Assembly: GCF_002285435.1 (NCBI RefSeq)
Contig: NZ_NSBT01000018.1
Coordinates: 186,001-250,000, forward strand
DNA: 64,000 nt
Reading direction: 5' to 3'
Origin: Actibacterium ureilyticum
GTDB taxonomy: Bacteria > Pseudomonadota > Alphaproteobacteria > Rhodobacterales > Rhodobacteraceae
Both the position numbers and the translations under genes were made by a program. The first letter of the stretch is position 1. Each line of letters begins with the position of its first letter. This document shows, one piece after another, positions 1 through 45,871 of this stretch. The notes beneath the pieces are model-generated. The model was not told the origin of the DNA. It did no database searches and worked only from the letters and a program-made list of their open reading frames with translations.

Positions 1-28
1 AAGCGCAGCCCGCGATAGGACGCCCTGC

Positions 29-1129
29 ATGGCCCGGGCCGACATCAAACCCGAACCCGATGGCGGCTGGTCGACGGAAATCGTCACGCTGAAGAACGCC
101 ACCGTGGTGCCGCCGCTGAAATCCGACATGGTGCAGCCCGCCGGTATCCTGCGCGAAGATGGCAAATACGCCCTGCGCGGGGCGTTGTGGCGGGGCGGAA
201 AGCCGATCACCGTGCAGCCCGACCCGCCCAAGGGGCCACTGCCCGAGCTGAAGGGCCGTTGGCTGTGGGGCGGGGTTCTGTGGGCGCATTTCGGGCATTT
301 CCTGGCCGAAAGCACATCGCGGCTTTGGGCGCTGGATCGTGCCGCGCCGCTGGATGGCATCCTGTTCATGCCCAAACGCCCCCGTCTGGGCGATCAGGTG
401 CACGAGTTTCAGCGCACCTTCATCGCGCTTATGGACAGCGACCTGCCGATCCGGGTGCTGGCCGAACCGCATCGCGTCGAACAGATCGTGCTGCCGGGAC
501 AGGGCTTTGGCCTTGGGGCGATTTCGGCTGGAACAGAGCCTTTTCGTGCCGCATTTCACGACCGTTTCGGCGCCGATGTCGCGCCCGATGGGCCGAAACG
601 GCTGTACATCTCGCGCTCGGCCCTGAGCGGCAAGCGCGGCGGCATGATGGGCGAGGAAAAGTTCGAAACCTATCTGACCGATCATGGGTACCAGGTGTTT
701 CACCCGCAAAAGCACGACATGCGCACCCAGATCGCCCGCTACAAGGCGGCGGAACAGGTGATTGCGGGCGACGGATCGGCGCTGCACATGTTCGCGATGG
801 TGGGGCGGCCGGAACAACAGGTGGCGATGGTGTTGCGGCGATCGTCGAATGTGGTGGGCAACCTGATAACCCACATCACCAGCTTTACCGGACGCGCGCC
901 GCTGGTGATCAAGGCGCTGCGCTGCGAATGGCTGCCGCCGGACAAGAAACGCGCCAGCCGCATGTCATTTGGCGAGCTGGATCTGCCCCTGCTGCAACAG
1001 GCGCTGCGCCAGAACGGCTTTATCGGCGATGGACCCGTGTGGGAGCCGGTCACCGATACCGAGCGCGCGCAGGTATTCGAGGATAAGGGCCTGACCGGGG
1101 ACAAGGCCTATGTCCCCTGGCAGTTCTGA
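29..1129 (+). CDS. Glycosyltransferase family 61 (DUF563) protein
   Basis: 366 aa. Family members move sugars onto glycans, usually for extracellular polysaccharide or a capsule; the substrate here cannot be read. Two family-typical stretches are visible: HFGHFLAES in the N-terminal third, and a GDGSALH segment that corresponds to the conserved GxHGSAL loop of DUF563 proteins. There is no signal peptide or membrane span, so the protein is probably cytoplasmic. The ATG at 29 follows an AGGA-like ribosome site. Its stop codon directly abuts the stop of the convergent HD-domain gene. Whatever lies upstream is outside the window. Confidence 0.75.
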   Translation: MARADIKPEPDGGWSTEIVTLKNATVVPPLKSDMVQPAGILREDGKYALRGALWRGGKPITVQPDPPKGPLPELKGRWLWGGVLWAHFGHFLAESTSRLWALDRAAPLDGILFMPKRPRLGDQVHEFQRTFIALMDSDLPIRVLAEPHRVEQIVLPGQGFGLGAISAGTEPFRAAFHDRFGADVAPDGPKRLYISRSALSGKRGGMMGEEKFETYLTDHGYQVFHPQKHDMRTQIARYKAAEQVIAGDGSALHMFAMVGRPEQQVAMVLRRSSNVVGNLITHITSFTGRAPLVIKALRCEWLPPDKKRASRMSFGELDLPLLQQALRQNGFIGDGPVWEPVTDTERAQVFEDKGLTGDKAYVPWQF

Positions 1130-27395: not shown

Positions 27396-29366
27396 CTATT
27401 GCGCGGTAAAACGCGCCTGATCGGCGGCGGGCAACCAGATCCGGAACTCTGCCCCGCCGCCATCGGCATTGCGGGCGGTGATGATCCCGCCCGCCCGCTG
27501 GATCAGGCTTTGCGAGATCGACAGGCCCAGCCCCGTCCCCTCGCCCAGCTTGGTGGTAAAGAACGGATCGAACACCGTGTCCAGCTTGTCGGTGGGAATG
27601 CCCGGCCCGGTATCGCGCAGGCTCAGGCAGACACCCTCGCGCCCCTCACGCCCTTCTGGCCGCAGGGTCAGATCCAGCCGCCCGGCATCGCCCATCGCCT
27701 GTACCGCGTTGACGATCAGGTTGATCACCACCTGCTGCATCTCGCCGGGGTCGATGCGCACGGCGGGCACAGGTTCGATATGGGTGTCGACCTGAATATC
27801 GCCCTTGGCCAGCACATGTTCGACCAGCACAAGGCAATCACTGACCACCGGGGCCAGCGCGACGGTCTCGTCATAGCCCGAGAATTCGGACGGGCGGGCG
27901 AATTTCAACAGCTTGCCCACGATGGCCGAAATCCGCGTGACCTGTTGGTCGATCAGGTTCAATTCGGTCTGAAGCGGCGCGGCATCCGCGCCCAGGGTTT
28001 CGCGGATCACATCGACATTGCCCTGGATGACCGCGACGGGGTTGTTGATCTCGTGCGCGACGCCGGCGGTGATTTCCCCGATCGAGGCCAGCTTTTCGCT
28101 CATCACCAATTGGCGATAGGTGCTTTCCAGCTTCTCGTTCGCCTCGCGCAGCTCGGCTGTGCGTTCCTCGACCCGCTGGTTCAGCTCGTCCGCCCAGGCT
28201 CGCAACCGGCGGTCGCGGTCCTGCACCTGGTCCAGCAGGTCGTCCAGATGCGCGGCGACCTGGCCGATCTCGTCCCGCGCGCCGGTCAGCGCGTTGCGCG
28301 CCGACAGGTCCCCCTGCCCGACCCGGCGCATGGTCTGGGTCATGCGCTCCAGCGGGGCGAAAATCCCCTTGGCCAGCCACAGGAACACCGGTCCGGACAG
28401 CGCCAGAACCGCCGCAAACGCCGCCATCATCCACAGATAGGCCGACCGTTTCGCCGCCGTAAATGGCGCCTCGAGGAAACCCACGTAAAGCATCCCCACA
28501 CGTTCGCCGTAACTGTCGGTCAGCGGCAGATAGCCCGAGATATACCAGTCGTTCACCACGAAAGCCCGGTCCAGCCAGGTTTTCCCGTCGCCCAGAACCG
28601 CGCCACGGACCACCGCCGACACACGGGTGCCCAGGGCGCGCACATCCTCGAACAGGCGCACGTTGGTCGACACGCGCACATCGTCCAGAAACAGCGTCGC
28701 GGTGCCCTGTCGGTCGCCGCCGGTGACGGCGTTCAGATAGACCAGCGCGTTGATCGTATCGATGAAATCCAGATTGCGGTTCAACAGGATGCCGCCGACC
28801 AACACCCCCTCTTGCCCCGCCAGGTGAACAGGGCTGGCCGCATGCACGACCATGCCGCGATCCTCGGCCATGCGCGCGCTGGGCACGGCGGCTTCGGTGT
28901 CGATCAGGTCAATCCGCGCGCGCCCCGCCAGATCGCCGGGAAACCGCGCCAGATCGCCCGCCGCGAAAATGTCGATCTGGGTGTCGGACCGCCCGTTCAG
29001 CGCGGTTGCGATCACCGGCCAGCGCGCCGCGTCCTCGATCGCGTTCTCTTCGGGCAGGTAATACAGGAAATCCAGCGCCAATTCATCTCTCTTCCGGCGG
29101 AAAAAGGCGGTTTCGGCATTGCGGTCCTCGCCCAGGACCTGTGCGAATTCGGCCGATTCCGCGACGCCCTTCAACTCGTCGCCGGTCGCGGTCATGATCC
29201 GGGCCAGGTATTGTTCGGCGATCCGCAGATCGCTTTCGACATTGGCGATCAACACCTTGTCATAATCCGAGGTCCAGCGCGTCATGCCCAGCAACAACAG
29301 AAGCGGCATCAACAGAACCAGCGGGGCAAGCGCCAGAACCAGCAGGCGCAGGCGAACGGTTGTCAT
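27396..29366 (-). CDS. Sensor histidine kinase with periplasmic sensor domain
   Basis: 656 aa inner membrane kinase. First helix at about 8-28, periplasmic Cache-like sensor at about 30-305, second helix at about 309-331, HAMP at 332-385, coiled coil, then HisKA with phospho-acceptor H438 in AGVAHEINNPVAV and an ATPase domain with the N box NLIVNAVQAMG, DTGPGIP and GTGLGLSIS. The signal is unknown; the setting between two formate dehydrogenases suggests formate, redox state or metal. No regulator gene is adjacent; the orphan response regulator at 45872-47206 is the obvious partner. It converges on the catalytic FDH gene with eight bases between. Confidence 0.9.
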   Translation of the reverse strand: MTTVRLRLLVLALAPLVLLMPLLLLLGMTRWTSDYDKVLIANVESDLRIAEQYLARIMTATGDELKGVAESAEFAQVLGEDRNAETAFFRRKRDELALDFLYYLPEENAIEDAARWPVIATALNGRSDTQIDIFAAGDLARFPGDLAGRARIDLIDTEAAVPSARMAEDRGMVVHAASPVHLAGQEGVLVGGILLNRNLDFIDTINALVYLNAVTGGDRQGTATLFLDDVRVSTNVRLFEDVRALGTRVSAVVRGAVLGDGKTWLDRAFVVNDWYISGYLPLTDSYGERVGMLYVGFLEAPFTAAKRSAYLWMMAAFAAVLALSGPVFLWLAKGIFAPLERMTQTMRRVGQGDLSARNALTGARDEIGQVAAHLDDLLDQVQDRDRRLRAWADELNQRVEERTAELREANEKLESTYRQLVMSEKLASIGEITAGVAHEINNPVAVIQGNVDVIRETLGADAAPLQTELNLIDQQVTRISAIVGKLLKFARPSEFSGYDETVALAPVVSDCLVLVEHVLAKGDIQVDTHIEPVPAVRIDPGEMQQVVINLIVNAVQAMGDAGRLDLTLRPEGREGREGVCLSLRDTGPGIPTDKLDTVFDPFFTTKLGEGTGLGLSISQSLIQRAGGIITARNADGGGAEFRIWLPAADQARFTAQ

Positions 29367-29451
29367 CGGCGGACCTCCCTGCAGGACCGGTGCGCCACAG
29401 CCTAGCGCCCCCACCGTCCCGATGCCAAGCCCCGCCGCCGCGCGGACATTC

Positions 29452-29490
29452 TGTCCCGCCCGGAACGCCGTGGGCCGGATCGGCGGGACA
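29452..29490. promoter_or_regulatory. Inverted repeat between kinase gene and tup operon
   Basis: TGTCCCGCC and GGCGGGACA, nine perfect base pairs separated by 21 bases, lie midway in the 219-base gap between the divergent kinase and tupB. It could be an operator for either direction or an RNA stem. The long spacer would suit two half-sites on neighbouring helical turns. No regulator identified. Confidence 0.35.
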
Positions 29491-29585
29491 ACCTGCCCAA
29501 ATATGCGAAATCGCCCGGAAATCCGGTGGCACGCGGCGGGCGCGCATGCTTTGGTCGGGTCGAAGAGGGGGAGGTTCATCGGCGC

Positions 29586-30290
29586 ATGACCGATCTGTGG
29601 GACGGGCTGGCACAGGCGCTGTGGCTGGTCGCGACATTCGATCCCGAGCTTGTGGAAATCGCCGCGCGGTCCTTGCGGGTGACGCTCAGCGCGCTGGTCG
29701 TCGCCTCGGCCATCGCGATGCCGCTGGCCGCGCTGCTGGCGGTGCGCCGGTTCCGCTGGCGGCGGGTGATCATCGCCATCCTGAACGCGCTGATGGGCTT
29801 GCCGCCGGTGGTGGTCGGTCTGGTGGTTTACGTGATGCTGTCGCGCGCGGGGCCGTTCGGGGTGCTGGGGCTGCTGTTCACCCCCACCGCGATGATCATC
29901 GCGCAGGTCATCATCATCGTGCCGCTGATTGCCAGCATCGCGCACCAGTCGCTGCGCGATCTGTGGCAGGACTACCATGACCTGCTGATTTCGATGAACG
30001 TGACCCAGTGGCAGAAGATCCGCACGCTGCTGTGGGACACACGCCGCGCCCTTCTGACCGCCGCGCTGGCCGGGTTCGGCCGTGCGATTGGCGAGGTCGG
30101 AGCGATCATGATCGTAGGCGGCAATATCGACCATGCCACACGTGTCCTGACGACCGCCATCGCGCTGGAAACCGGCAAGGGCGATTTCGCGCTGGCACTG
30201 GCGCTGGGCTTTGTGCTGATCGGGCTGGCGGTGGCGGTGAACCTGGCGATCCACTGGCTCAGCCGGACAGAACGGGAGGGCCGGTGGTGA
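29586..30290 (+). CDS. tupB: Tungstate-type ABC transporter permease
   Basis: 234 aa inner membrane protein with about five helices. Carries NALMGLPPVVVGLVVYVMLSRAGPFG and GRAIGEVGAIMIVGGNIDHATRVLTTAI, marks of the TupB subgroup that distinguish it from ModB. Its task is passage of tungstate (or a related oxyanion) delivered by TupA. The start at 29586 follows a GGGAGG site; upstream in-frame extension lacks family likeness. It overlaps tupC within GTGA. Tungsten supply would matter if one of the formate dehydrogenases uses W. Confidence 0.9.
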   Translation: MTDLWDGLAQALWLVATFDPELVEIAARSLRVTLSALVVASAIAMPLAALLAVRRFRWRRVIIAILNALMGLPPVVVGLVVYVMLSRAGPFGVLGLLFTPTAMIIAQVIIIVPLIASIAHQSLRDLWQDYHDLLISMNVTQWQKIRTLLWDTRRALLTAALAGFGRAIGEVGAIMIVGGNIDHATRVLTTAIALETGKGDFALALALGFVLIGLAVAVNLAIHWLSRTEREGRW

Positions 30291-31000
30291 GCGATCTGTT
30301 CCCCCTGACCGTCCGGGGCGCCACGACGCGGCGCCGGGGCAAGGTGCTGGTCGGGCCCGTCGATCTGACGCTTTCGGGTAATGGCGCCTGTGTGGTGATC
30401 GGGCCCAACGGATCGGGAAAAACGACCCTGTTACGCCTGCTTCATGGGGCGGCTCGGCTGTCGTCAGGCACGATCGACTGGGCCTGCCCGATGGCTAAGG
30501 CCCGGCGCGCACAGGCCTTTGTGTTCCAGCGCCCGGTGATGCTGCGCCGGTCGGTTCTGGACAACATCGCCTATCCGCTGATCATCCGCGGCACATCCCG
30601 CGCCCAGGCCCGGGCACAGGCGCGCGACTGGGCCGAACGGGTGGGGCTGGGCGATATGCTGGACCGGGCCGCGCCGGTTCTGTCGGGCGGCGAGCAGCAG
30701 AAGCTTGCCCTGGCGCGCGCGCTGATCGGCCAGCCCAAGTTGCTGTTTCTGGATGAACCCTGCACCGCGCTGGATGGCAGCGCGATGCGCGAGATCGAAC
30801 AGATCCTGACCGATGCCAAAGCCGCCGGCACGCGGCTGATCCTGTCGACCCATGACATGGGACAGGCGCGGCGTCTGGCCGATCAGGTGGTGTTTTTGTT
30901 GCGCGGACAAGTCCACGAATCCGGCCCGGCGGCCGAATTCTTTGAAACCCCCCGCACCGAACAGGCGCGGGCATTCCTGAAGGGAGATATTGTCGAATGA
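30287..31000 (+). CDS. tupC: Tungstate-type ABC transporter ATP-binding protein
   Basis: 237 aa, GTG start overlapping the tupB stop; a GGGAGG ribosome site lies six bases ahead. Walker A VIGPNGSGKTTLLRLL, Q-loop VFQRPVMLRRSVLDNIAYPL, signature LSGGEQQKLALARAL and Walker B LLFLDEPCTALD. It lacks the C-terminal Mop domain of ModC, as expected for TupC. The order tupB-tupC-tupA differs from the more usual tupA-tupB-tupC. An adjacent GTG one codon earlier is possible. Confidence 0.9.
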   Translation: MSDLFPLTVRGATTRRRGKVLVGPVDLTLSGNGACVVIGPNGSGKTTLLRLLHGAARLSSGTIDWACPMAKARRAQAFVFQRPVMLRRSVLDNIAYPLIIRGTSRAQARAQARDWAERVGLGDMLDRAAPVLSGGEQQKLALARALIGQPKLLFLDEPCTALDGSAMREIEQILTDAKAAGTRLILSTHDMGQARRLADQVVFLLRGQVHESGPAAEFFETPRTEQARAFLKGDIVE

Positions 31001-31806
31001 TACGGAAATTCCTGATCGGCATCGCGGCCCTGTGTTTCGCGCAGGCGGCACTGGCGGCGGATGTCATGAAAATGGCGGTCACCACCTCATTTCACAATTC
31101 TGGGCTGGCCGAGGTGCTGTTGCCCGAAATCATGAAGGACCTGGATCTGGAGGTGCAGTTGCTGGTCGTCGGCACCGGGCAGGCGCTGAAACTGGGCCGC
31201 GCGGGCGATGTGGATGCGATCCTGGTGCATTCCAAGGCGGCCGAGGAGGTGTTCGTCGCCGAGGGGTTCGGCACCCACCGGCGCGAGATCATGTATAACG
31301 ATTTCGTCTTTATCGGCCCGTCGGCGGACCCCGCCGCGATTGCCGGGGCCGACAGCGCCGCCGCGTCGCTGCAAAAGATCGCCACGGCTCAGGCGCCTTT
31401 CGTCAGCCGGGGCGATGACAGCGGCACCCACAAGAAGGAACTGAGCCTGTGGGTCGCCGCCGGGTTGGAGCCCGCCGCGTTCGGCGACTGGTACAAGGCC
31501 GTCGGCGCCGGGATGGGCGCGGCGTTGAACACCGCGTCGGGGATGAACGCCTATATCTTGTCGGACCGGGCCAGCTGGCTGAATTTCGGCAACAAGGGCG
31601 ATCTGGCGCTGCTTTATTCCGGCGATCCGGTGCTTTTCAACCAATACGCCTATCTGCCGGTGAACCCCGCGCTGCACAGCCACGTCAAAACCGATCTGGC
31701 CCAGAAGTTGGAGGATTGGCTGGTCTCGGACCGCGCCAAGGAATTGATCGACAGCTATCAGATCAATGGCGAGACCTTGTTCGTGTTCAACGCGAAGCCC
31801 GAATAA
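30997..31806 (+). CDS. tupA: Tungstate-type periplasmic binding protein
   Basis: 269 aa with a Sec signal peptide (cleavage near ALA, residue 20). The mature start contains VTTSFHNSGL (28-37), a variant of the TTTSTxxSG oxyanion-binding motif of TupA, and later FVSRGDDSGTHKKEL with the second SG/T set, plus TLNTASGMNAY-like DRASWLNF. It should bind tungstate in the periplasm. The Thr-Ser-Phe in place of Thr-Ser-Thr may affect selectivity. Four-base overlap with tupC. A hairpin shared with the opposite gene follows the stop. Confidence 0.9.
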   Translation: MIRKFLIGIAALCFAQAALAADVMKMAVTTSFHNSGLAEVLLPEIMKDLDLEVQLLVVGTGQALKLGRAGDVDAILVHSKAAEEVFVAEGFGTHRREIMYNDFVFIGPSADPAAIAGADSAAASLQKIATAQAPFVSRGDDSGTHKKELSLWVAAGLEPAAFGDWYKAVGAGMGAALNTASGMNAYILSDRASWLNFGNKGDLALLYSGDPVLFNQYAYLPVNPALHSHVKTDLAQKLEDWLVSDRAKELIDSYQINGETLFVFNAKPE

Positions 31807-31812
31807 AACTTC

Positions 31813-31842
31813 ACTGATCCGCCTGAAAACGGGCGGATCAGT
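31813..31842. terminator. Shared stem-loop between tupA and the DUF6505 gene
   Basis: ACTGATCCGCC pairs perfectly with GGCGGATCAGT (11 pairs, eight-base loop) between two convergent genes, the right arm covering the DUF6505 stop codon. On the minus strand it is followed by GAAGTTTTATT. It probably ends transcription in both directions. Confidence 0.75.
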
Positions 31843-32317
31843 CGTCTAACGACCCGTGTATCGCGAATTGGTCCAACCCCGCATCCTGGGGTTGGATCAC
31901 GCGAAACGCCTCTTTCACGCCGGCCTCGGTCAGTTCACGCGCCACGGTCAGCAGGGTGTTGGGATCGTGATCGGCGCACAACTCGACCATCTGCGCGATT
32001 TCCTCCTGCGCGACGGGCAGGGCGGCCTCGACCGACGGGGCGCCATAATAGGTCACGAAATGCTGGGCCAGCGCGCGGGTCAGCGCCTCTAGCTCCGCCG
32101 GTTCGACCTGTGTGACGGCCACGAATGTCACGCGCCCGCCGGTTTCCAGCCCCAGCCAGCCATTGGCAAAGGCCTGCCGCGCCTTGCCGGTCAAATCGCC
32201 CTCGGTCCAGTTCGAAAACTCGAACCCGCCCGATATGCACCATTCGGATGTGCGCGCGGGGCTGGCATAGACGCGCTGATCGCTTTCGTCGAAATGGATG
32301 GCACGGGCCAGGTTCAT
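31838..32317 (-). CDS. DUF6505-like protein of the formate dehydrogenase cluster
   Basis: 159 aa, soluble, no signal peptide. I believe it is the DUF6505 family, found in Rhodobacterales beside formate dehydrogenase genes. An N-terminal part reads MNLARAIHFDESDQRVY and SGGFEFSNW, then an all-helical C-terminal half rich in Glu (QVEPAELEALTRALAQHFV). Function unknown. Its start overlaps the stop of the ligase-like gene by four bases (ATGA), making it the last of four coupled genes. Family naming is from memory of similar neighbourhoods and is less certain than the gene itself. Confidence 0.7.
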   Translation of the reverse strand: MNLARAIHFDESDQRVYASPARTSEWCISGGFEFSNWTEGDLTGKARQAFANGWLGLETGGRVTFVAVTQVEPAELEALTRALAQHFVTYYGAPSVEAALPVAQEEIAQMVELCADHDPNTLLTVARELTEAGVKEAFRVIQPQDAGLDQFAIHGSLDD

Positions 32318-33021
32318 GGGGCGTCCTCCAAAAGGGTCGTAAGCGCGATCAGATGTGTTTCGCCCGCATCGTCGCGCAGCAGCATCCCGAAATCCTCGTC
32401 CACACCCATGAAAGTACCGCTGAACCCGTCGCGGGCAACCGCATCGCCGATCCCATGCACCAGCCCGCGCCATTCGGCATGCAGGGCGCGCGGGCCGTCC
32501 TGTTCCCACCGGGCGATCCAATGCAGGCTGTGACGCGCCCAGGCCTCGATCAGCGTGTCGGGCGCGACATCGGCGCAGCCCTCGGCGTAAAGTGCGGTCT
32601 GGTCGGGGGTCGCGCCGGTATCGGCGCTGGCGGGCAGCAGCGGCAGCGTGAACCCCACCACCAGCCAATCGGGCACCGCCGCGGGATCGGTGCCAGCGGC
32701 CAGCACCCGGAACCGCCCGCAGGCGGCCCCATTCACACGGATGCCACCATCCCAGCCCAGATGCACCGCGACCTCGGGCGGGGCCAGCGCGCCCAAGGCA
32801 TTTTGCAGCCCCACGCCACAGACCGGAAGCATCGCCATGGCCTGCGCCAGCGGGACCTCGGGCGCGAAGACAAGGGCGCCCTGAACCCTGTCGGCGCGGA
32901 TGGAATGCGTCACCAATCCAGCGTCACAGCCCATGATCGCCCGCATACAGGCATGTTCGACGGCATCGCCCGGCGCGGCTTCGCCCCACATCAGCGGCGG
33001 CAATGTCAACGTGTCGGTCAT
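32314..33021 (-). CDS. Biotin/lipoate ligase-like protein with DUF4444 end
   Basis: 235 aa, soluble. Residues 1-170 follow the biotin-protein-ligase fold (LGWDGGIRVNGAACGRFRV at 88-106 matches the KWPND...KLAG region of BirA); residues 175-235 form the short DUF4444 beta domain (GFSGTFMGVDEDFGMLLRD). The GRGRxGR substrate loop is missing and the catalytic lysine region reads GAACG, so ordinary ligase activity is doubtful. It may bind a cofactor or a target protein instead. Four-base overlaps with Mrp upstream and DUF6505 downstream. Confidence 0.75.
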   Translation of the reverse strand: MTDTLTLPPLMWGEAAPGDAVEHACMRAIMGCDAGLVTHSIRADRVQGALVFAPEVPLAQAMAMLPVCGVGLQNALGALAPPEVAVHLGWDGGIRVNGAACGRFRVLAAGTDPAAVPDWLVVGFTLPLLPASADTGATPDQTALYAEGCADVAPDTLIEAWARHSLHWIARWEQDGPRALHAEWRGLVHGIGDAVARDGFSGTFMGVDEDFGMLLRDDAGETHLIALTTLLEDAP

Positions 33022-34091
33022 GCCGCGCCCCGGGCGACCAGATCGGCGGCGATCTTCTGAAACACCTGCGCCTGTGGGCTGTCGGGGGCGCTGACGGTGA
33101 TCGGGGCGCCGCCATCGGCGGCCAGCCGCACCTGCAGGTCCAGCGGCACCTCGGCCAGCAGCGGAACGCCCAGCTTCTCGGCCTCGCGCGCGACGCCGCC
33201 ATGTCCAAAGACATGTTCCTCGTGCCCGCAATTGGAACAAATATGCGTCGACATGTTTTCGATCATGCCCAGCAGCGGCACGTTCAGCTGTTTGAACATG
33301 TCGATCCCCTTGCGCGCATCCAGCAGCGCCACGTCCTGCGGGGTCGACACGATGATCGCGCCATCGACCTGGGCCTTTTGTGCCAGCGTCATCTGCACAT
33401 CGCCGGTGCCGGGGGGCAGGTCGACCAGCAGAACATCCAGCGCGCCCCATTGGACCTGCATCATCATCTGTTGCAGCGCCCCCATCAGCATCGGGCCACG
33501 CCAGATCACGGCCTGATCCTCGTTCGTCATCAGCCCGATCGACATCATGGTGACGCCGTGGTTGCGCATCGGCAGGATCGTCTTGCCATCCGGGCTGGCC
33601 GGGCGGCCCGAAACGCCCAGCATCCGCGGCTGCGACGGGCCGTAGACATCGGCATCCAGCAGCCCCACGCGCCGCCCCTGTTGCGCCAGCGCGCAGGCCA
33701 GGTTGGCGGACACCGCGGATTTACCCACGCCGCCCTTGCCACTGGCAATCGCGACGATCCGGTCGACGCCGGGGATCTTTTGCGGGCCCGTGGGCTGCGC
33801 GGGCCGTTTCGGGCGCAGCTCGGGCGGGGCTTTTTCGGTGTGGCCGGTCATCACGATGGACACGGTTTCAACCCCATCCAGCCGGGACAGAGCCTGTTCC
33901 GCCGCGCTTTTGACGGCCGAAAACGCATCGGCGTGCTGCGGCGGGATTTCCATGACAAAGCGCACCGCCCCGCCATCCACCTGCAACGCGCGGACCACGC
34001 CGCTGGCCATGATATCGCCCCCGGCGACCGGATCGGTCACCGTTTTCAGGACCGCTAGCACCTGTTCCCTTGTCACGCTCACGGGGGTCAC
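33018..34091 (-). CDS. Mrp/NBP35 family iron-sulfur carrier ATPase
   Basis: 357 aa, GTG start overlapping the preceding stop. N-terminal MIP18/DUF59 domain (about 5-85), then a deviant P-loop ATPase with GKGGVGKS at 118-125, LLDADVYGPSQPRMLG, DLPPGTGD and the cluster-bridging C285-x2-C288 in HICSNCGHEEHVFG. Mrp/ApbC proteins carry and deliver [4Fe-4S] clusters. In this setting the likely clients are the cluster-rich FDH subunits or the 649-residue Fe-S protein; this is an inference from position. Confidence 0.9.
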   Translation of the reverse strand: MTPVSVTREQVLAVLKTVTDPVAGGDIMASGVVRALQVDGGAVRFVMEIPPQHADAFSAVKSAAEQALSRLDGVETVSIVMTGHTEKAPPELRPKRPAQPTGPQKIPGVDRIVAIASGKGGVGKSAVSANLACALAQQGRRVGLLDADVYGPSQPRMLGVSGRPASPDGKTILPMRNHGVTMMSIGLMTNEDQAVIWRGPMLMGALQQMMMQVQWGALDVLLVDLPPGTGDVQMTLAQKAQVDGAIIVSTPQDVALLDARKGIDMFKQLNVPLLGMIENMSTHICSNCGHEEHVFGHGGVAREAEKLGVPLLAEVPLDLQVRLAADGGAPITVSAPDSPQAQVFQKIAADLVARGAA

Positions 34092-34279
34092 GCGCCGCCC
34101 TGGATGGTGCCGGTGACCTCATGCGTCAGGTCCAGCGCGTCGATGGTGATCACCGCCTTGACCGCGTAGGTCTCGCCGGGTTTGCCGCCATTGCGCATCG
34201 CCTCTTCGATGGCCTGCTGCGAGGTCACGCCGACCTGCTTCAGGAATTTCCGCATCGACATGTTGAAATCGTCGCTCAT
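34088..34279 (-). CDS. Small DUF6494-like protein
   Basis: 63 aa, soluble, first gene of the four-gene minus-strand unit. Starts MSDDFNMSMRKFLKQVGVTSQQAIEEAMRNG and ends with a beta-rich stretch TYAVKAVITIDALDLTHEVTG. The excellent AAGGAGG ribosome site four bases ahead of the ATG at 34279 fixes the start. I believe it is the DUF6494 family, which travels with Mrp and formate dehydrogenase genes in Rhodobacterales. Role unknown; size and helix-strand plan would suit an adaptor. Confidence 0.75.
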   Translation of the reverse strand: MSDDFNMSMRKFLKQVGVTSQQAIEEAMRNGGKPGETYAVKAVITIDALDLTHEVTGTIQGGA

Positions 34280-34336: not shown

Positions 34337-35086
34337 ATGGGAGGATTGCGCAGATTGTTCATGGCTCTGCTGTGGGCCATTGTGCCGATGGCCGGTCAGG
34401 CCGACGAGCGGCTGGTGCGTCTGCACGCCCCCGACAGCCTGATCGAGACCGGCCTGTTCCAGCATATCCTGCCGCGCTTTTCGCTGAAAACGCAAATCCG
34501 TGTGGTGCTGGACCCAGTGCCGCAGCAGGCGGATGTGGTTCTGGGGGATGCGGGGCGCCCGCTGTTCCAGGGGCTTGGGCAGACCTGGCACCTGTCGCTG
34601 CGCGACCGCGATCACACGGGCAGCGCGCGGTTTGACACATGGCTGCGGTCCGATGTTGGCCAGCGCACAATCTTGGGGTTTGCGCCGGGCGGACAGGCGC
34701 TGTTCGCACCGCCCGACCGTGTTGCGACCGCAACCGCGCCCGCGCAGATGGATGGCGACGCGGTGATCGGACAACAGGTCGCGCGGGACAGTTGCGCGCG
34801 CTGTCATGTCGTCGATCCCGGGCCGGGCATGGCGGGCATCGGCTCGACCCCCAGCTTTGCGGTGCTGCGCAGCCTGACGGATTGGGAGGCACGGTTCAGT
34901 GCCTTTTACGCCCTGAAACCGCATGCGGCCTTTACCCAGATCACCGATGTCACGCCGCCTTTCCCGCAGGAAAGCCCGCCGCCCATCGTCCCGATCGAGC
35001 TGACGTTGGATCAGGTCGATGCGGTGCTGGCCTATGTCGCCGTGATGCAGGCGGCAGATCTTGGGGCGCCCTTGCAGCATCAGTGA
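34337..35086 (+). CDS. Periplasmic protein joining a TupA-like segment to a c-type cytochrome
   Basis: 249 aa. Signal peptide at 1-22 (cleavage near GQADE). Residues 28-75 read like the start of a TupA-type binding protein: APDSLIETGLFQHILPRF parallels TTSFHNSGLAEVLLPEI of the neighbouring TupA, followed by a strand and ADVVLGDA. Residues 140-245 are a cytochrome c domain with haem motif CARCH at 153-157; the sixth ligand is unclear (M165 or H196). It stands alone on the plus strand among minus-strand genes and converges on the Fe-S protein gene with a seven-base overlap. Probably accepts electrons from, or senses an oxyanion for, the formate dehydrogenase. Confidence 0.75.
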   Translation: MGGLRRLFMALLWAIVPMAGQADERLVRLHAPDSLIETGLFQHILPRFSLKTQIRVVLDPVPQQADVVLGDAGRPLFQGLGQTWHLSLRDRDHTGSARFDTWLRSDVGQRTILGFAPGGQALFAPPDRVATATAPAQMDGDAVIGQQVARDSCARCHVVDPGPGMAGIGSTPSFAVLRSLTDWEARFSAFYALKPHAAFTQITDVTPPFPQESPPPIVPIELTLDQVDAVLAYVAVMQAADLGAPLQHQ

Positions 35087-37029
35087 TCCCGGCGCTTCGA
35101 CAGGTAATCTTCGGTCGTGCGCGGGCGCGGGCGCTCGCCCCCGGCGAAGGGGTTGTCGTCGGAATGGAACTGCGCGTTGACGCGGCAATTGTCGCACATC
35201 TGGATCATCTTGATCTTGTCACCGCCCGCGAACATCGCATGGGCCGACAGCTTTTCGGTGATGCGGTCGATGGTGGATTTGACCCCGAACAGCGCACCGC
35301 ATTCGATACAGGCAAAGGGCTCCTCCTCGTGCAGGACGCGCTGGGTCAGCGCGGCATCGGTCAGGTCCAGCCGGGGGGCATAGGTGATCGCATCCTCGGG
35401 GCAGATATTGGCGCAGAGCCCGCATTGCAGGCAGGCGTCCTCCTGGAATCTCAGCTGCGGCGCGTCCGGGTTGTCGCCCAACGCGCCTGAGGGGCAAAGC
35501 GACACACAAGACAGGCAGAGCGTGCAGGCATCGGTATCGACCAGCACCGCGCCATAGGGGGCACCGGCGGGCAGGTCCAGCGCGTCGATCCCCGGATGCA
35601 GCGCGCGCGCGGCCTGGCGCGTGATCTGGCGCCGCGTGCCCATGGGCCGGACCGGCGTGGTCAGGGGCGCGGGCGCGGTTTCGTCAAACAGGCGGTCCGA
35701 CAAAGCATCGGGGTCCGACAGGTCCAGCAGCGTGACGGTATCGGCCCCGCCGATGGCTTGGGCCAGGGCGATTTGTGTCTCTAACCCGCCCAAATCCGCG
35801 CCCGGACCCGGCAGGATCGACACCGATGCAAACCCGGCAGCCAGTGCCGCGACAGCCTCGGCGTGGCCAAAGGCGCCGATGGCGGGCAGCTCCAGCGGGA
35901 TCACATCGGCGGGCAGCCCGCGCCCATGCCGGGCGCTCAGGCGGATCATCTCGGCCCCATGCGCATCATGGGCCAGAAGCCGCGGCGCGGTGCCGCCGGC
36001 GTTTAGAAAAGCGCTGGCCAGCGTCTGTATGCGCCGCATGGTCAGGTCGACCGCCGGCGCGTCATAGGAAATCGCCCCCGACGGACAGGCCGCCGAACAG
36101 GCCCCGCACCCGGCACAGATCATCGGGTCGACGACCACATGGTCCCCGCCCGGCACAATTGCCCCGGTGGGACACAGGTCCAGACAGCGGGTGCAGCCGG
36201 TCTGTTCGGCACGGCTGTGGGCGCAAAGCAGCGGTTCGGTCCGCACGTAAAGCGGCTTTTCGAACGTGCCGACCAAATGCGATGCCGCCAGAATCGCGGC
36301 GGACACCGCAGGCGGGTGGCCGGGATCGGCGCGCAGATACCCCTCGCGCTTTTCCGGGGCTGGAAACAGCGGATCGGTCCCGCGCAGGTCCAGGATCACG
36401 TCGCATTCCGACACGCCGCCATCGCGCGGTGGCGTCAGGGTGAACGCGCCCCGCCCGCCCGGCTCGACCTGTTGCAGCGCGTCGATGGTGACGGCAAAGC
36501 CACCCAACGCGCCCTGCGCGCGGCGCAGCCTGCCGATCATCACGTCGAAGTCGCGGCTGTCGGGCAGATCGTCGGCCGCATCAAGCAGGACGGTAACGCC
36601 CAGATGATCCTGCAGCGCCTGTGCGGCCTGCAACGCGACGGGCGCGGGCCCCATGATCAGGCACAGCCCCTGCGAGACCACGTCGATGGATTTCCCGGCA
36701 TCGGCAGGCAGCAGCGCCTCGGCCACCAAGGCGGACATTTTGGGCAAGGTCGGCGCGGTATCGGCGGTCCATCCCGCCCGGTCGCGCAGGTCCAGCGTCG
36801 CCGGTGCGGGCAGCTCCAGATCGTCGGCCAGGGCCTCGAACACGCGGGCTTCCTGGGTGCAGCAAAAAAGTGAATCACCCTGCGTCAAGGCGGCGGCGGC
36901 GCGGTTGATCTGGGTGGTGCAAAGCGCCGAACAGACCGGGGCGACATCCAGACCTGTGGCTTGGGACAGCCCCGCCGCATCCAGGCTCTGACTGCCCAGA
37001 CAATCGCATAAAATCAGGTGCTTAGCCAT
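35080..37029 (-). CDS. Large multi-[4Fe-4S] electron transfer protein
   Basis: 649 aa, cytoplasmic. The N-terminal region has a Cys-rich patch (C8, C10, C33, C37, C56, C57). Two ferredoxin motifs lie at 279-315 (CTRCLDLCP; CAGCGACSAACP) and two at 502-543 (CTLCLSCVSLCP; CLQCGLCANICP). A Rossmann-like segment separates them (about 340-450). A last Cys-rich tail has CIEC (574-577) and CDNC (612-615). Family members sit in alphaproteobacterial formate dehydrogenase clusters; electron transfer between FDH and another partner is inferred. The ATG follows GGAAGG. Divergent from the DUF3305 gene with a 359-base gap. Confidence 0.85.
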   Translation of the reverse strand: MAKHLILCDCLGSQSLDAAGLSQATGLDVAPVCSALCTTQINRAAAALTQGDSLFCCTQEARVFEALADDLELPAPATLDLRDRAGWTADTAPTLPKMSALVAEALLPADAGKSIDVVSQGLCLIMGPAPVALQAAQALQDHLGVTVLLDAADDLPDSRDFDVMIGRLRRAQGALGGFAVTIDALQQVEPGGRGAFTLTPPRDGGVSECDVILDLRGTDPLFPAPEKREGYLRADPGHPPAVSAAILAASHLVGTFEKPLYVRTEPLLCAHSRAEQTGCTRCLDLCPTGAIVPGGDHVVVDPMICAGCGACSAACPSGAISYDAPAVDLTMRRIQTLASAFLNAGGTAPRLLAHDAHGAEMIRLSARHGRGLPADVIPLELPAIGAFGHAEAVAALAAGFASVSILPGPGADLGGLETQIALAQAIGGADTVTLLDLSDPDALSDRLFDETAPAPLTTPVRPMGTRRQITRQAARALHPGIDALDLPAGAPYGAVLVDTDACTLCLSCVSLCPSGALGDNPDAPQLRFQEDACLQCGLCANICPEDAITYAPRLDLTDAALTQRVLHEEEPFACIECGALFGVKSTIDRITEKLSAHAMFAGGDKIKMIQMCDNCRVNAQFHSDDNPFAGGERPRPRTTEDYLSKRRDH

Positions 37030-37388
37030 GTGTTCCTTCCCGCCGATCATGGTGTTTCTTCGGCCCAACGGTGCCCCCGTTTTGCAAAATGCTAGACATG
37101 ATTCGCCCAGGCTCACAACCGGTTTTCCGATGGGCGGGCCGCGCGGGTTCCCGACCGGCTGGCCGAAAACGCGGCGGGTGATTCGGTTTTCGCGGTGGCG
37201 TGAAAATACCGACAGAAATGATCGGGTTAGACATTTCGACCTTACGGCCCGCCGACCCCCCTGTGGCCTGCCCAAATTGTCCGGCATCGGGCCAAGTGAC
37301 GGCGATTGCGCAGAAATCCCTTTGCCCCGTGCGCCCCACGGACCAAGCTGGGGGCGGGAGGTTTTTCGGTTTGATCCACAATCCGAAC
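37030..37388. other. 359-base divergent control region of the fdh cluster
   Basis: No convincing gene. It separates the Fe-S protein gene (minus) from the DUF3305-led fdh operon (plus), so both promoters must lie here. It holds a perfect palindrome TTTTGCAAAA at 37080-37089, an AACCGGTT palindrome near 37119, and a CCGTG/CACGG stem at 37327-37341. No -24/-12 sigma-54 promoter with correct GG/GC spacing was found. The DUF3305 frame is open back to 37200, but that stretch does not look coding. Confidence 0.6.
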
Positions 37389-37934
37389 ATGTATCGCACG
37401 ATGCCGGTTGGAATTGTCCTGAAGAAGGCACCCGGCGTCACGCGATGGGTGCGCTGGCACTGGTCCGCGACGGCCGTGCTGCCCGGGGCTGGCCCCGCGC
37501 ATTGGCATGTGCTGCGCCGAGAGGGCGATGCCGTGGAATACCACGCCGCGACCGTGACGCTGGAACTGCACGGCGCCGAGACCGAGGCCTATCTGCATGG
37601 GCTGACGGCAGAGATCCCCAGCCTCTATGTCGTCATGCGCGAGGCCGAGGGCGATTTGCCGATCGAGGTGCTTCTGGCCACCGCCTCGCCCTATGAGGCG
37701 CAGGATTACACCGACAGCGGCGAAGAGATCGTGGAAAAGGTGCCGATGCCACACGGGCTGGTGGCGTGGGTGCGCGACTTCGTCGAGGAATACCATCAGG
37801 AAGAGGCCTTCGTGAAGCGCAGGCGCGACAAGAAGCGGATCGACCTGGTTCAGGATGGCATCGGCGACCCGCGCATCGGCAAGGCGGCGGATATCTATGC
37901 CTCGCCCGGGTTGAAGCGGAGGCGTCTGCAATGA
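37389..37934 (+). CDS. DUF3305 protein, formate dehydrogenase accessory
   Basis: 181 aa, soluble. DUF3305 proteins occur at the head of alphaproteobacterial periplasmic formate dehydrogenase operons. Seen here are MPVGIVLKKAPGVTRWVRWHW, HAATVTLELHGAETEAYLHGL and PSLYVVMREAEGD, then a C-terminal helical tail (FVEEYHQEEAFVKRRRDKKR). Function unproven; assembly of FDH is likely. The ATG at 37389 lacks a clear ribosome site; an in-frame TTG at 37371 has GGGAGG nine bases ahead, and ATG 37401 is also possible. Its stop overlaps the next start by four bases. Confidence 0.8.
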   Translation: MYRTMPVGIVLKKAPGVTRWVRWHWSATAVLPGAGPAHWHVLRREGDAVEYHAATVTLELHGAETEAYLHGLTAEIPSLYVVMREAEGDLPIEVLLATASPYEAQDYTDSGEEIVEKVPMPHGLVAWVRDFVEEYHQEEAFVKRRRDKKRIDLVQDGIGDPRIGKAADIYASPGLKRRRLQ

Positions 37935-38509
37935 GCCGGTCCGATTTCTGGTCACGCCGCAAATCCGCGGTCGAGGCAGAGGCCCGCGCCGCGGCAGAGG
38001 CCGACACCGCCACACTTGCCGCCCAAGAGCAAGAGGCGCTGGAGGCACGCGACGATGCCGAATTGCTGGCCGAGGCCGGGCTGCCCGCGCCCGAGGCGCT
38101 GGAACATCCCGAGCAGGTTCAGGAATTCCTGCGCGCCGCCCTGCCCAACCGGCTGAAGACCCGCGCGCTGCGGCAATTGTGGCGCCTGAATCCGGTGCTG
38201 GCCAATGTCGACGGGCTGGTCGAATATGGCGAGGATTTCACCGACAGCGCGACCGTGGTCGAAAACCTGCAAACCGTCTATCAGGTGGGCAAGGGGATGA
38301 TCACCCGGATCGCCGAACTGGCCGAAGATCCCGCGCCGGACCCGGTCGATGAATCCACTGAGCCGGTCGAGCCCGTGGCATTGCAGCCCGCCCCGCCGGT
38401 TGCGGCCACCGATGCGGCGCCAATACCGGAATTCGACGAGGAATACGTCACTCTTCCAGCGCAAAAGCGCCGGATGCAGTTCCATTTCGACCCCGAGAGA
38501 GGAGCGTGA
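37931..38509 (+). CDS. DUF3306 protein, formate dehydrogenase accessory
   Basis: 192 aa. Always found next to DUF3305 in fdh clusters. N-terminal basic MSRSDFWSRRKSAVEAEARAA followed by an acidic helix, a conserved core LPNRLKTRALRQLWRLNPVLANVDGLVEYGEDFTDSATV (about 79-118), and a Pro-rich tail. No enzyme motif is visible; an assembly factor or adaptor is inferred from context. It overlaps DUF3305 by four bases and the TorD-like gene by one (TGATG), so the three are translationally coupled. Confidence 0.82.
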   Translation: MSRSDFWSRRKSAVEAEARAAAEADTATLAAQEQEALEARDDAELLAEAGLPAPEALEHPEQVQEFLRAALPNRLKTRALRQLWRLNPVLANVDGLVEYGEDFTDSATVVENLQTVYQVGKGMITRIAELAEDPAPDPVDESTEPVEPVALQPAPPVAATDAAPIPEFDEEYVTLPAQKRRMQFHFDPERGA

Positions 38510-39114
38510 TGAACATCGCCACTCAGCCACAGATCCCTGACGAGGACCGCCTGCGTGCGGATCTTTACAATTATCTGGGGGTGATCCTGTCGGCGCCGCC
38601 CGATCAGATGATGCTGGACCAGACCGCGGGGCTGTCGGGGGACGAAACGCCGCTGGGTCAGGCCGTTGGCGCGCTGTCGAAACTGGCGCGGATCACCAAG
38701 CCGAAATCGGTCGAAAGCGAGTTCAACAGGCTGTTCATCGGCTTGGGGCGGGGCGAGCTTCTGCCCTATGCCAGCTATTACCTGACCGGGTTTCTGAACG
38801 AAAAGCCGCTGGCCCTGTTGCGGCAGGATATGGCGGCGCAGGGGCTGGCGCGGGCCGAGACCGTGTTCGAGCCCGAGGACAACATCGCCAGCCTGCTGGA
38901 GATGATGGGTGCGCTGATCGTTGGCCGCTTTGGCACTCCGGCCGATCTGGCGGCGCAAAAGACGTTCTTCAACCGGCATATCGGGCCGTGGGCCAGCCAT
39001 TTCTTCACCGATCTGGAGGGGGCCAAGAATTCGGTCTTCTACGCGCCGGTCGGCACGGTGGGGCGTGTCTTCATGGAGATCGAGGCCGAAGCGTTTCGCA
39101 TGATCTCGGACTGA
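38509..39114 (+). CDS. TorD/DmsD-family chaperone for formate dehydrogenase
   Basis: 201 aa, cytoplasmic, all helical. TorD-type signature regions are ESEFNRLFIGLGRGELLPYASYYLTGFL and PEDNIASLLEMMGALI, plus FFNRHIGPWASHFFTDLE. Such chaperones bind the Tat signal of a molybdoenzyme and hold it until the cofactor is inserted; the FdhA at 39509 is the obvious client. The ATG at 38509 overlaps the DUF3306 stop; the GTG one codon earlier is an alternative. A GAGAGGAG ribosome site precedes it. Confidence 0.88.
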   Translation: MNIATQPQIPDEDRLRADLYNYLGVILSAPPDQMMLDQTAGLSGDETPLGQAVGALSKLARITKPKSVESEFNRLFIGLGRGELLPYASYYLTGFLNEKPLALLRQDMAAQGLARAETVFEPEDNIASLLEMMGALIVGRFGTPADLAAQKTFFNRHIGPWASHFFTDLEGAKNSVFYAPVGTVGRVFMEIEAEAFRMISD

Positions 39115-39399: not shown

Positions 39400-39508
39400 G
39401 TAATACCGGCCAAAGGCAACCGGTTGCGTGACGCCCGACCGCCTGACAGGCCATGAGCACAACCAAGCCAGCCGCACGCGACGTGCAGCGCGCAAGGGAG
39501 AGAGAAAC

Positions 39509-42487
39509 ATGTTGAGGAAAAAGACCAACGGGGTTGCGCGACGCCCCCAGCGGACAAGTATCCTGTCCGAGGTGGGCAAAACCTCGGTTGACCGGCGGGC
39601 GTTTTTGCGCGGATCCGGTCTGGCGATCGGGGGCCTGGCGGCGATTGCCGCAACCGGCGGAACCGTGACCCAAGCCAAGGCCGCCGGTGCCGCAACCGGC
39701 GCAATCGAGCTGAAGAAATCCGTTTGCACCCATTGTTCGGTGGGGTGCACCGTGGTGGCCGAGGTGTCCGATGGCGTCTGGGTCGGGCAAGAGCCCGGCT
39801 GGGACAGCCCGTTCAACCTGGGCGCCCATTGCGCCAAGGGCGCATCGGTGCGCGAACACGCCCATGGCGAACGCCGCCTGAAATACCCGATGAAGAAAGA
39901 GGGTGGCGAGTGGAAGCGCATCAGCTGGGAACAGGCGATCAACGAGATCGGCGACGGTATGATGAAGATCCGGGACGAAAGCGGCCCGGACAGCGTCTAT
40001 TGGCTGGGCAGCGCCAAGCACAATAACGAACAGGCCTATCTGTTCCGCAAATTCGCGGCCTATTGGGGCACGAACAACGTGGATCACCAGGCGCGGATCT
40101 GCCACTCGACCACCGTGGCGGGCGTTGCGAATACATGGGGCTATGGCGCCATGACCAATTCGTATAACGACATCCACAATTCCAAGGCCATCTTCATCAT
40201 CGGCGGCAACCCGGCCGAGGCGCATCCCGTCAGCCTGTTGCATGTCCTGCGCGCGAAAGAGCAGAACAACGCGCCGCTGATCGTCTGCGACCCGCGTTTC
40301 ACGCGCACCGCGGCCCATGCGGATGAATATGTCCGTTTCCGCCCGGGCAGCGATGTGGCGCTGGTCTGGGGTATTCTGTGGCACATCTTCGAAAACGGGT
40401 GGGAGGACAAGGAGTTCATCCGCACCCGCGTTTGGGGCATGGACCAGATCCGCGAAGAGGTCGCCAAATGGACGCCCGAGGAGGTCGAGCGTGTGACCGG
40501 CACCCCCGGTTCGCAGCTGCGCCGCGTGGCGCGCACCATGGCCAACAACCGTCCCGGCACCGTGATCTGGTGCATGGGCGGCACCCAGCACACCAATGGC
40601 AACAACAACACCCGTGCCTATTGCGTGCTGCAGCTGGCGCTGGGCAACATGGGCACATCGGGGGGTGGCACCAACATCTTCCGTGGCCACGACAACGTGC
40701 AGGGCGCAACCGACCTGGGCGTTCTGAGCCACACGCTGCCGGGTTACTACGGTCTGACCGCCGGGGCCTGGGGCCACTGGGCACGCGTCTGGGGCGAGGA
40801 TCCCGAATGGCTGGCCGGACGGTTCGCCAAGACCACCGGCGCCGATGGCAAGGAAAAGTCGCTTCAGAACCTGACCGGCATCCCGGTCAGCCGCTGGATC
40901 GACGGCGTGCTGGAAGACCCCGCAAACACGGACAACCCCGACAAGGTGCGGGCGATGGTCCTGTGGGGGCACGCGCCGAACTCGCAAACCCGCATGGTCG
41001 AGATGAAGAAGGCCATGGAAATGCTGGACATGATGGTCGTAATCGACCCCTATCCCACCGTTTCCGCGGTGCTGCATGACCGGACCGACGGGGTTTACCT
41101 GTTGCCGGCGGCGACGCAGTTCGAAACCCATGGCTCTGTCACCGCGTCGAACCGGTCGATCCAGTGGCGCGAGCAGGTGGTCGATCCGCTGTTCGAAAGC
41201 AAGCCCGATCACGAGATCATCGGCCTTTTCGCGCAGAAGTTCGGCTTTCACGACCGGCTGTTCCGCAACATTGCGATCGAAGACGATGGCGTGACCCCGA
41301 ATATCGAGGACACGCTGCGCGAGATCAACACCGGCATGTGGACCGTCGGCTATACCGGGCAAAGCCCGGAGCGGCTGAAGCTGCACATGGCCAACCAGCA
41401 CACGTTCGACCGCACGACGTTGCAGGCGGTGGGCGGCCCGGCCGATGGCGATTACTATGGTCTGCCATGGCCGTGCTGGGGCACGCCCGAGATGAACCAT
41501 CCCGGCACGCCCAACCTCTATGACATGTCGAAACCGGTGGCCGAAGGCGGCCTGACCTTCCGCGCCCGTTTCGGGGTGGAACGCGATGGCGACAACCTGC
41601 TGGCCGAAGGGGTTTATTCGGCCGGGTCCGAGATCGAGGACGGGTATCCCGAGTTCACCTATCAGATGCTCAAGGATCTGGGGTGGCACACCGATCTGGA
41701 ACCGTGGGAGCAGGCCTTTATCGCCAAGGCGGCGGGTGTGGATGGCTTTGCCGACTATACCAAAGAGGTCGGCGAGGCCGGCATGTCGCCCTTCCCGTCG
41801 GATTATGACGACAAGGTGGCCAAGGTGAACTGGAAAACCGACCTGTCGGGCGGTATCCAGCGGGTGGCGATCAAGCATGGCTGTGCGCCCTTTGGCAATG
41901 CCAAGGCGCGGGCGGTCGTGTGGACCTTCCCCGATCCGATACCGGTCCACCGCGAGCCGCTTTACACCAACCGGCGCGACCTGGTGGCGGATTACCCGAC
42001 CTATGAGGACCGGAAATTCTATCGTCTGCCGACGATGTATGCCTCGATCCAGAAACAGGATTTCAGCAAGGATTATCCGATCATCCTGACCTCGGGGCGT
42101 CTGGTCGAATACGAGGGGGGCGGGGATGAAACCCGGTCCAACCCGTGGCTGGCCGAGCTGCAACAGGACATGTTCATCGAGATCAACCCGCGGGATGCCA
42201 ACAACCTGGGTGTGCGCGACGGCGCGCAATGCTGGGTCGAAGGTCCCGAGGGCGGCAAGGTCAAGGTCATGGCGATGGTGACCGAACGGGTGGGCGAGGG
42301 CGTGGCCTTTATGCCCTTCCACTTCGGCGGCCATTTCCAGGGCGAAGACCTCAGGTCGAAATATCCCGACGGGTCCGATCCGTATGTCCTGGGCGAAAGC
42401 ACCAACACCGCCCAGACCTATGGCTACGACTCGGTCACCCAGATGCAGGAGACCAAGTGTACCCTGTGCAAGATCATGCCAGCGTAA
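39509..42487 (+). CDS. fdhA: Periplasmic formate dehydrogenase, catalytic subunit
   Basis: 992 aa. Tat-exported molybdo/tungsto-bis-MGD enzyme oxidising formate outside the inner membrane. Tat motif DRRAFLRGSG at 28-37 after a long n-region; [4Fe-4S] ligands C73, C76, C80, C108; metal ligand C198 in ARICHSTTVAGVA, the position of selenocysteine in E. coli FdnG. RGHDNVQGATDLG and the C-terminal dinucleotide-binding domain (GRLVEYEGGGDETRSNPW) are intact. It is the FDH3-like type with FdhB and FdhC behind it. The ATG follows GGGAGAGAG. The frame is open from 39428 but the Tat start is decisive. Confidence 0.96.
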   Translation: MLRKKTNGVARRPQRTSILSEVGKTSVDRRAFLRGSGLAIGGLAAIAATGGTVTQAKAAGAATGAIELKKSVCTHCSVGCTVVAEVSDGVWVGQEPGWDSPFNLGAHCAKGASVREHAHGERRLKYPMKKEGGEWKRISWEQAINEIGDGMMKIRDESGPDSVYWLGSAKHNNEQAYLFRKFAAYWGTNNVDHQARICHSTTVAGVANTWGYGAMTNSYNDIHNSKAIFIIGGNPAEAHPVSLLHVLRAKEQNNAPLIVCDPRFTRTAAHADEYVRFRPGSDVALVWGILWHIFENGWEDKEFIRTRVWGMDQIREEVAKWTPEEVERVTGTPGSQLRRVARTMANNRPGTVIWCMGGTQHTNGNNNTRAYCVLQLALGNMGTSGGGTNIFRGHDNVQGATDLGVLSHTLPGYYGLTAGAWGHWARVWGEDPEWLAGRFAKTTGADGKEKSLQNLTGIPVSRWIDGVLEDPANTDNPDKVRAMVLWGHAPNSQTRMVEMKKAMEMLDMMVVIDPYPTVSAVLHDRTDGVYLLPAATQFETHGSVTASNRSIQWREQVVDPLFESKPDHEIIGLFAQKFGFHDRLFRNIAIEDDGVTPNIEDTLREINTGMWTVGYTGQSPERLKLHMANQHTFDRTTLQAVGGPADGDYYGLPWPCWGTPEMNHPGTPNLYDMSKPVAEGGLTFRARFGVERDGDNLLAEGVYSAGSEIEDGYPEFTYQMLKDLGWHTDLEPWEQAFIAKAAGVDGFADYTKEVGEAGMSPFPSDYDDKVAKVNWKTDLSGGIQRVAIKHGCAPFGNAKARAVVWTFPDPIPVHREPLYTNRRDLVADYPTYEDRKFYRLPTMYASIQKQDFSKDYPIILTSGRLVEYEGGGDETRSNPWLAELQQDMFIEINPRDANNLGVRDGAQCWVEGPEGGKVKVMAMVTERVGEGVAFMPFHFGGHFQGEDLRSKYPDGSDPYVLGESTNTAQTYGYDSVTQMQETKCTLCKIMPA

Positions 42488-42499
42488 GGAGGAAAGAGA

Positions 42500-43093: not shown

Positions 43094-43103
43094 GCGCCGT
43101 CCG

Positions 43104-43131
43104 GGGCAGGGCGGTCCGATCCGCCCTGCCC
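43104..43131 (+). other. Perfect stem-loop between fdhB and fdhC
   Basis: GGGCAGGGCGG pairs with CCGCCCTGCCC (11 pairs, six-base loop), ten bases past the fdhB stop, followed by GTTTC. Too little T for a full terminator; it would suit partial termination or protection of the fdhAB message. Confidence 0.6.
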
Positions 43132-43191
43132 GTTTCGCGCGGCCCCGCGTGGCGCGCACCTGATGTCACACCCTGCACGGAGATCCCCCGC

Positions 43192-44391: not shown

Positions 44392-44395
44392 CCCC

Positions 44396-45844: not shown

Positions 45845-45871
45845 ACGCCGGTGCGGATTGACAGGGCAACG

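Follow-up and report, generated by a model that had tools for sequence, protein, structure and literature searches.

Binding proteins normally need both of their lobes, the ligand being held between them. In TupA, residues 2-76 together with 201-251 make up lobe A and residues 91-200 lobe B, and tungstate is bound by TTTS, H59, R118, T124 and D170 (PMC5517513). A binding protein acting next to a cytochrome has been described in methanol oxidation, where periplasmic XoxJ is the proposed activator of the methanol dehydrogenase XoxF beside the cytochrome XoxG, XoxG/J being a single fused protein in Methylacidiphilum (PMC8170126). No fusion of a binding protein and a cytochrome linked to formate was found in the literature searched, most subscription journals lying outside that search, and no model of Pfam or NCBIfam covers a fusion of TupA lobe A with a cytochrome. 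We describe here a protein in which lobe A of TupA precedes a c-type cytochrome, and whose gene belongs to an FDH3 formate dehydrogenase cluster (Table 1).

Table 1. Features of the fusion gene and its surroundings. Positions are those of the window, i.e., the whole stretch of 64,000 nucleotides that was analysed.
Feature	Position	Strand	Remarks
tupB, tupC, tupA (full-length tungstate transporter genes)	29526-31806	+	tupB and tupC identified from position and by eye
tupA	30997-31806	+	PBP_like_2 118 bits; NF041772 180.8 bits, below cut-off 400
Mrp/ApbC-type Fe-S cluster carrier	33018-34091	-	Pfam 334.8 bits
DUF6494 gene	34091-34279	-	Pfam 98.6 bits; divergent from fusion gene, 57-base gap
TupA-cytochrome fusion ORF	34337-35086	+	intact, ATG start, 249 aa
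Probable Sec-type signal peptide	34337-34402	+	residues 1-22, cleavage at about GQA/DE; inferred from RR in n-region, hydrophobic core and A-x-A
TupA lobe A, N-terminal segment	34406-34555	+	residues 24-73, beta1-alpha1-beta2-beta3; hhalign, shuffles, AF2
Short beta hairpin	34556-34600	+	residues 74-88; AF2 secondary structure and VIA alignment with 5my5 2..251
TupA lobe A, C-terminal segment	34616-34720	+	residues 94-128, equivalent to both C-terminal helices of TupA; hhalign, 3cvg and 5my5 matches
Monohaem cytochrome c domain	34760-35083	+	residues 142-249; Pfam PF00034
CARCH haem-binding motif	34793-34807	+	residues 153-157
His196 (PH motif), proposed distal axial ligand	34922-34924	+	conserved in 86/86 sequences
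Poly-4Fe-4S protein	35080-37431	-	convergent; 7-base overlap with end of fusion gene; start probably inside ORF
DUF3305, DUF3306 and TorD/Nitrate_red_del chaperone genes	37317-39114	+	
FDH3 genes as a block	39428-45712	+	
FDH3 alpha	39428-42487	+	Tat-exported molybdopterin subunit
FDH3 beta	42500-43093	+	FDH3_beta NF038355 343 bits, cut-off 240
FDH3 gamma	43192-44391	+	cytochrome b
WD40-cytochrome c fusion	44396-45712	+	directly after FDH3 gamma

The encoded protein is composed of a TupA-related domain (about residues 24-128), a linker and a cytochrome c domain (about residues 142-249). After a first collection of 22 loci, homologues were sought in 295 Rhodobacteraceae genomes, 106 of which gave a match, 105 of them strong. 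None of these 105 full or partial homologues contains an internal stop, and a frame or assembly artefact is thereby excluded as the origin of the ORF. The family alignment was built from 86 distinct fusion-family sequences.

The homology with TupA extends over both halves of lobe A. When query residues 22-130 were compared with a TupA alignment by local profile-profile alignment (hhalign), residues 26-73 matched the N-terminus of TupA (prob 87, E 4e-6) and residues 94-128 its C-terminus (prob 95, E 5e-8). The two blocks do not overlap, follow each other in the correct order and lie at the correct termini, covering about 50 N-terminal and about 35 C-terminal TupA residues; in the second, 'ARFDTWLRSDVGQRTILGFAPGGQALF' of the fusion protein is aligned with 'AQKLEDWLVSDRAKELIDSYQINGETLF' of TupA. 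The cytochrome part gave no match to the TupA alignment in the same type of comparison. A chance origin of the match is excluded by column shuffles and reversal, the real scores being 51.7 and 41.6 as compared to a best score of 20.0 in 150 column shuffles and of 14.5 for the reversed alignment. In searches with the family profile, both blocks were found, in order, in 63/63 TupA proteins among the loci, and four PDB sequences were matched: 5my5 and 3lr1, which are TupA, 3cvg, and 3muq, which is matched in both blocks and termed TupA in a previous study (PMC5517513). NCBIfam TupA (NF041772) is the family most often matched by members, although weakly (26/79 at E <=0.1, best 2.4e-4); the fusion protein of the window gives no match to it (cut-off 400 bits).

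The same conclusion is reached at the structural level. The AlphaFold (AF2) model has a mean pLDDT of 90.9, rising to about 97 over the TupA-related domain, and a pTM of 0.67, the relative orientation of the two domains being uncertain. Its topology is beta1-alpha1-beta2-beta3, followed by a hairpin (E52-57 and E60-66 of the mature protein) and two C-terminal helices. The best match among solved structures is TupA 5my5 (Z 13.7, 105 residues, rmsd 2.2 A, spanning chain residues 2-251 in the VIA alignment), followed by 3muq and 3cvg. Foldseek alone found no match under E 0.001 for the fusion model, because half of the target is missing, and the VIA alignment was required. ModA or another oxyanion binder is disfavoured as the source, as ModA chains reach only Z 10.9 and the sequence matches name TupA; ranks of this kind would be compatible with a distant kinship. 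The retained blocks are both halves of lobe A; lobe B is absent from sequence and model, the hairpin replacing the strand exchange of TupA and the whole of that lobe, and neither sequence nor model holds a two-lobed structure with a ligand cleft. The truncated TupA-type fold joined to a c-type cytochrome, as proposed in the preliminary description, is thus borne out, and more firmly than had been put there, by the two-block matches, the confident model and the rank of 5my5: the structure prediction and the profile search that it had suggested both place TupA on top. The N-terminal likeness that it had seen in residues 28-75 is real, but is only the first of two blocks. Its reading of CARCH and the C-terminal part as cytochrome c also holds, the Pfam model Cytochrom_C (PF00034) matching with 24.6 bits, above its cut-off of 21.3, as it does in 62/79 homologues.

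In the cytochrome domain, the haem motif of the family has the consensus CGRCH, with R155 invariant. We propose that the haem is bis-His, and hence probably low-potential, because His196 is the sole invariant His besides that of CxxCH, no conserved Met is found in the 86 sequences at the usual distal place before the C-terminal helix, and stand-alone cytochrome relatives also keep the equivalent of His196.

With a divergent DUF6494 gene on one side and a convergent poly-4Fe-4S gene on the other, the fusion gene forms its own transcription unit within the cluster. A gene for a formate-region Tat protein lies between the TorD and alpha subunit genes. The conserved minus-strand block at 31838-34279, whose products are cytoplasmic and which comprises the DUF6494 and Mrp/ApbC genes, a lipoate/biotin-ligase-like gene with DUF4444 and a small gene, accompanies FDH3 in nearly all loci. 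At the other end, the WD40-cytochrome c protein has WD40 repeats at residues ~18-312 and a C-terminal cytochrome c at 337-434, and is also present in the FDH3 clusters L149, L155, L160 and L182. The tupA gene of the window is a divergent subtype, with VTTS instead of TTTS and a score below the NCBIfam cut-off (Table 1); by identity to it, Rhodobacteraceae genomes split into groups of ~58-79% and ~40-53%. Finally, an ORF resembling a sensor histidine kinase is found past tupB (27396-29500, minus strand) and an NtrC-type sigma-54 response regulator gene directly after the FDH3 genes (45851-47206, plus strand); the two may be a pair controlling the cluster.

About one third of the sampled Rhodobacteraceae genomes contain the fusion, at one and the same place in a gene cluster for a periplasmic FDH3-type formate dehydrogenase. 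Of the 61 fusion loci whose flanks are long enough, all contain the poly-Fe-S gene and 60 the lipoate/biotin-ligase-like gene; TorD and FdhA are found in 59 each, Mrp in 57, DUF6494 in 43, tupA in 25 and tupB in 23. Over 290 genomes, 101 have both the fusion and FDH3 beta, 2 the fusion alone, 32 FDH3 alone and 155 neither (Fisher p 1.7e-46, kinship being ignored). In the first 120 genomes, TupA is present in 50/50 fusion genomes, and 36/86 TupA genomes are without the fusion. By linkage and co-occurrence, the fusion is therefore a member of the FDH3 cluster; its distribution tracks FDH3, not TupA, which is itself present in FDH3 genomes. The fusion protein is no obligatory subunit of FDH3, since 32 FDH3 genomes are without it and, among the loci read, the FDH3 clusters lacking it are otherwise largely intact. 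Genome G013, which is without it, has the poly-4Fe-4S gene of its FDH3 cluster broken into two neighbouring ORFs (L157:2472-4489).

The relatives display stages of lobe A shrinkage: complete, eroded and cytochrome alone. In phylum and class samples outside Rhodobacteraceae, matches are mostly to the cytochrome alone, the full fusion being found in one other family (f146; L175 and L176). Stand-alone cytochromes adjoin FDH3 genes in L149, L177, L178, L179 and L182; that of L177 lies between DUF6494 and the poly-Fe-S gene, i.e., in the exact slot of the window fusion. Because of these neighbours, the link with FDH3 seems older than lobe A. In L150, the stand-alone gene directly precedes tupB-tupA, with DUF3305/3306 nearby; L151, L152 and L153, from Rhodobacteraceae, have the cytochrome only, and the stretch read around it contains no FDH3 genes. 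At the other extreme, a homologue of genome G168 (L162:5475-6320, minus strand) has the complete secondary structure of lobe A. Its model holds helices 43-49 and 59-67, which are missing from the window protein, and aligns over 134 residues with 5my5 (Z 19.0); judged from the model, it looks like a transitional stage from TupA lobe A to the shortened form. A cytochrome-domain tree (109 columns, weakly resolved, midpoint root) places 8 stand-alone rows outside the fusion clade and 4 inside, with at least 4 changes, a pattern consistent with a single acquisition of lobe A and about three later losses. The fusion is disfavoured as the ancestral state by the 8 outer branches, which are not proof. 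The window's own tupA is not favoured as direct donor either, as other alphaproteobacterial TupA proteins score higher with the family profile (35.9 and 20.8 bits for the TupA of L183, against 9.3 and 16.2), a comparison that is not tree-based.

Lobe A is under strong purifying selection and is not decaying. Over 46 close pairs, lobe A has a median dN/dS of 0.09 and the cytochrome one of 0.07, and mean pairwise identity is 41 and 55%, respectively, among the 86 diverse sequences. Lobe A bears the signature G39..P46-R47-F48-S-L50-K51, where R47 is invariant and G39, P46, F48 and K51 are nearly so, as is a W; the PRFSLK signature is not common to TupA.

Our results, i.e., the architecture, the homology, the loss of ligand residues, the selection and the genomic linkage, point with moderate confidence to an accessory periplasmic cytochrome of FDH3, in which lobe A would be a module for docking or positioning. 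Its precursor would be a small monohaem cytochrome linked to FDH3, of the kind that stands alone in other alphaproteobacteria, and this would have gained a TupA-derived N-terminus in the Rhodobacteraceae lineage. Lobe B and the oxyanion site would have disappeared; afterwards lobe A would have shrunk by two helices into a compact alpha/beta module, the new hairpin holding together what remained. The haem could accept electrons from FDH3, or relay them between FDH3 and a periplasmic partner, while lobe A might dock or position the protein via the invariant PRFSLK patch, and not bind a solute; this docking role, like the distal ligand, is read from conservation. Against this reading count the transcription of the cytochrome gene apart from fdhABC, the 32 FDH3 genomes without the fusion, the three Rhodobacteraceae relatives with a lone cytochrome and no FDH3 genes nearby, and the uncertain placing of the two domains in the model.

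A tungstate/molybdate sensor with a haem read-out, as the preliminary description had envisaged, would suit the TupA descent of lobe A and its site beside tupBCA and a probable W/Mo enzyme. The ligand residues largely refute it: none of the 86 family sequences has Thr at the second position of TTTS, the Ser is retained in four only, the window protein among them, R118, T124 and D170 fall within the missing lobe, and no cleft is left. The TupA ligand set is thus not kept in the family, the lobe A ligand residues being replaced and every lobe B ligand deleted, so that sensing in the manner of TupA is unlikely and a sensor role as a whole hardly credible. The other suggestion, a remnant recruited as an electron carrier, fares differently in its two halves: an electron carrier fits the context, but the idea of a decaying remnant is at odds with the dN/dS of lobe A. 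The N-terminal part could still be the functionless, passive product of a tupA-cytochrome gene fusion, as most members carry an eroded lobe A, which some relatives have apparently lost altogether. This is contradicted by the selection and identity values given above, the invariant Arg and the near-invariant P, F, K, W and G, which make it very improbable.

More weight may be given to two roles in which lobe A would bind another protein. By analogy with XoxJ, it could bind apo-FDH3 in the periplasm and aid its activation, the cytochrome acting as a redox helper. The XoxJ and XoxG pair, fused in Methylacidiphilum (PMC8170126), favours such a maturation or activation factor, as do the Mrp, DUF6494 and TorD neighbours, which resemble maturation genes; absence from many FDH3 genomes also suits an accessory role. 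The fusion protein is nevertheless periplasmic, whereas Mo/W cofactor insertion in Tat-exported enzymes is cytoplasmic, and we consider this activity rather unlikely. Alternatively, lobe A could still dock on TupB, compete with or modulate TupA, and make tungstate uptake redox-dependent. Its TupA descent, the presence of TupA in all fusion genomes of the 120, and tupA and tupB within reach in part of the loci would agree with this; the many TupA genomes without the fusion, which tracks FDH3 instead, and the invariant PRFSLK signature, new and absent from TupA, argue against it, and a single lobe could presumably touch only half of the permease. Such a regulator appears quite improbable. A broader reading, in which the lone lobe, freed from its ligand, would have turned into a dedicated protein-docking module and would couple the periplasmic haem to either the formate dehydrogenase or the tungstate permease, redox state gating activity or uptake, is unlikely. 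The accessory FDH3 cytochrome with a docking lobe is thus the reading we retain.

On this reading, the scaffold of a transport protein, TupA, seems to have found a new use in electron transfer. One lobe is retained under selection for another purpose, and the surviving intermediates make this route of domain reuse traceable. The results also suggest that FDH3-type formate dehydrogenases have a cytochrome that had gone unnoticed and is probably low-potential; no periplasmic electron partner of these enzymes is established in the literature found.

Compared to TupA (5my5, 3lr1; NF041772), the fusion protein shares the fold and sequence of lobe A in both segments as well as Sec export, but is without lobe B, TTTS and R118/T124/D170, carries an attached haem and is by sequence no transporter component. 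With class I cytochromes c (PF00034), it shares CxxCH, the overall helix pattern and a score above the cut-off, but not the conserved distal Met, His196 lying in the likely place. Like XoxG/J, it joins a binding-protein fold to an electron-accepting cytochrome in the periplasm, tied to a C1 dehydrogenase; the likeness is drawn as an analogy. XoxG/J serves a different enzyme, a PQQ methanol dehydrogenase, and XoxJ is described as its own kind of binding protein. The stand-alone cytochromes of FDH3 clusters (L149, L150, L177, L178, L179) have the same cytochrome domain, with PH, GIGSTPSF-like and CxRCH motifs, and the same neighbourhood, but only the fusion has lobe A. Judged from Pfam, NCBIfam and the literature searched, the domain architecture is new, while its kind, domain reuse combined with cytochrome fusion, is known and does not define a new class of system.
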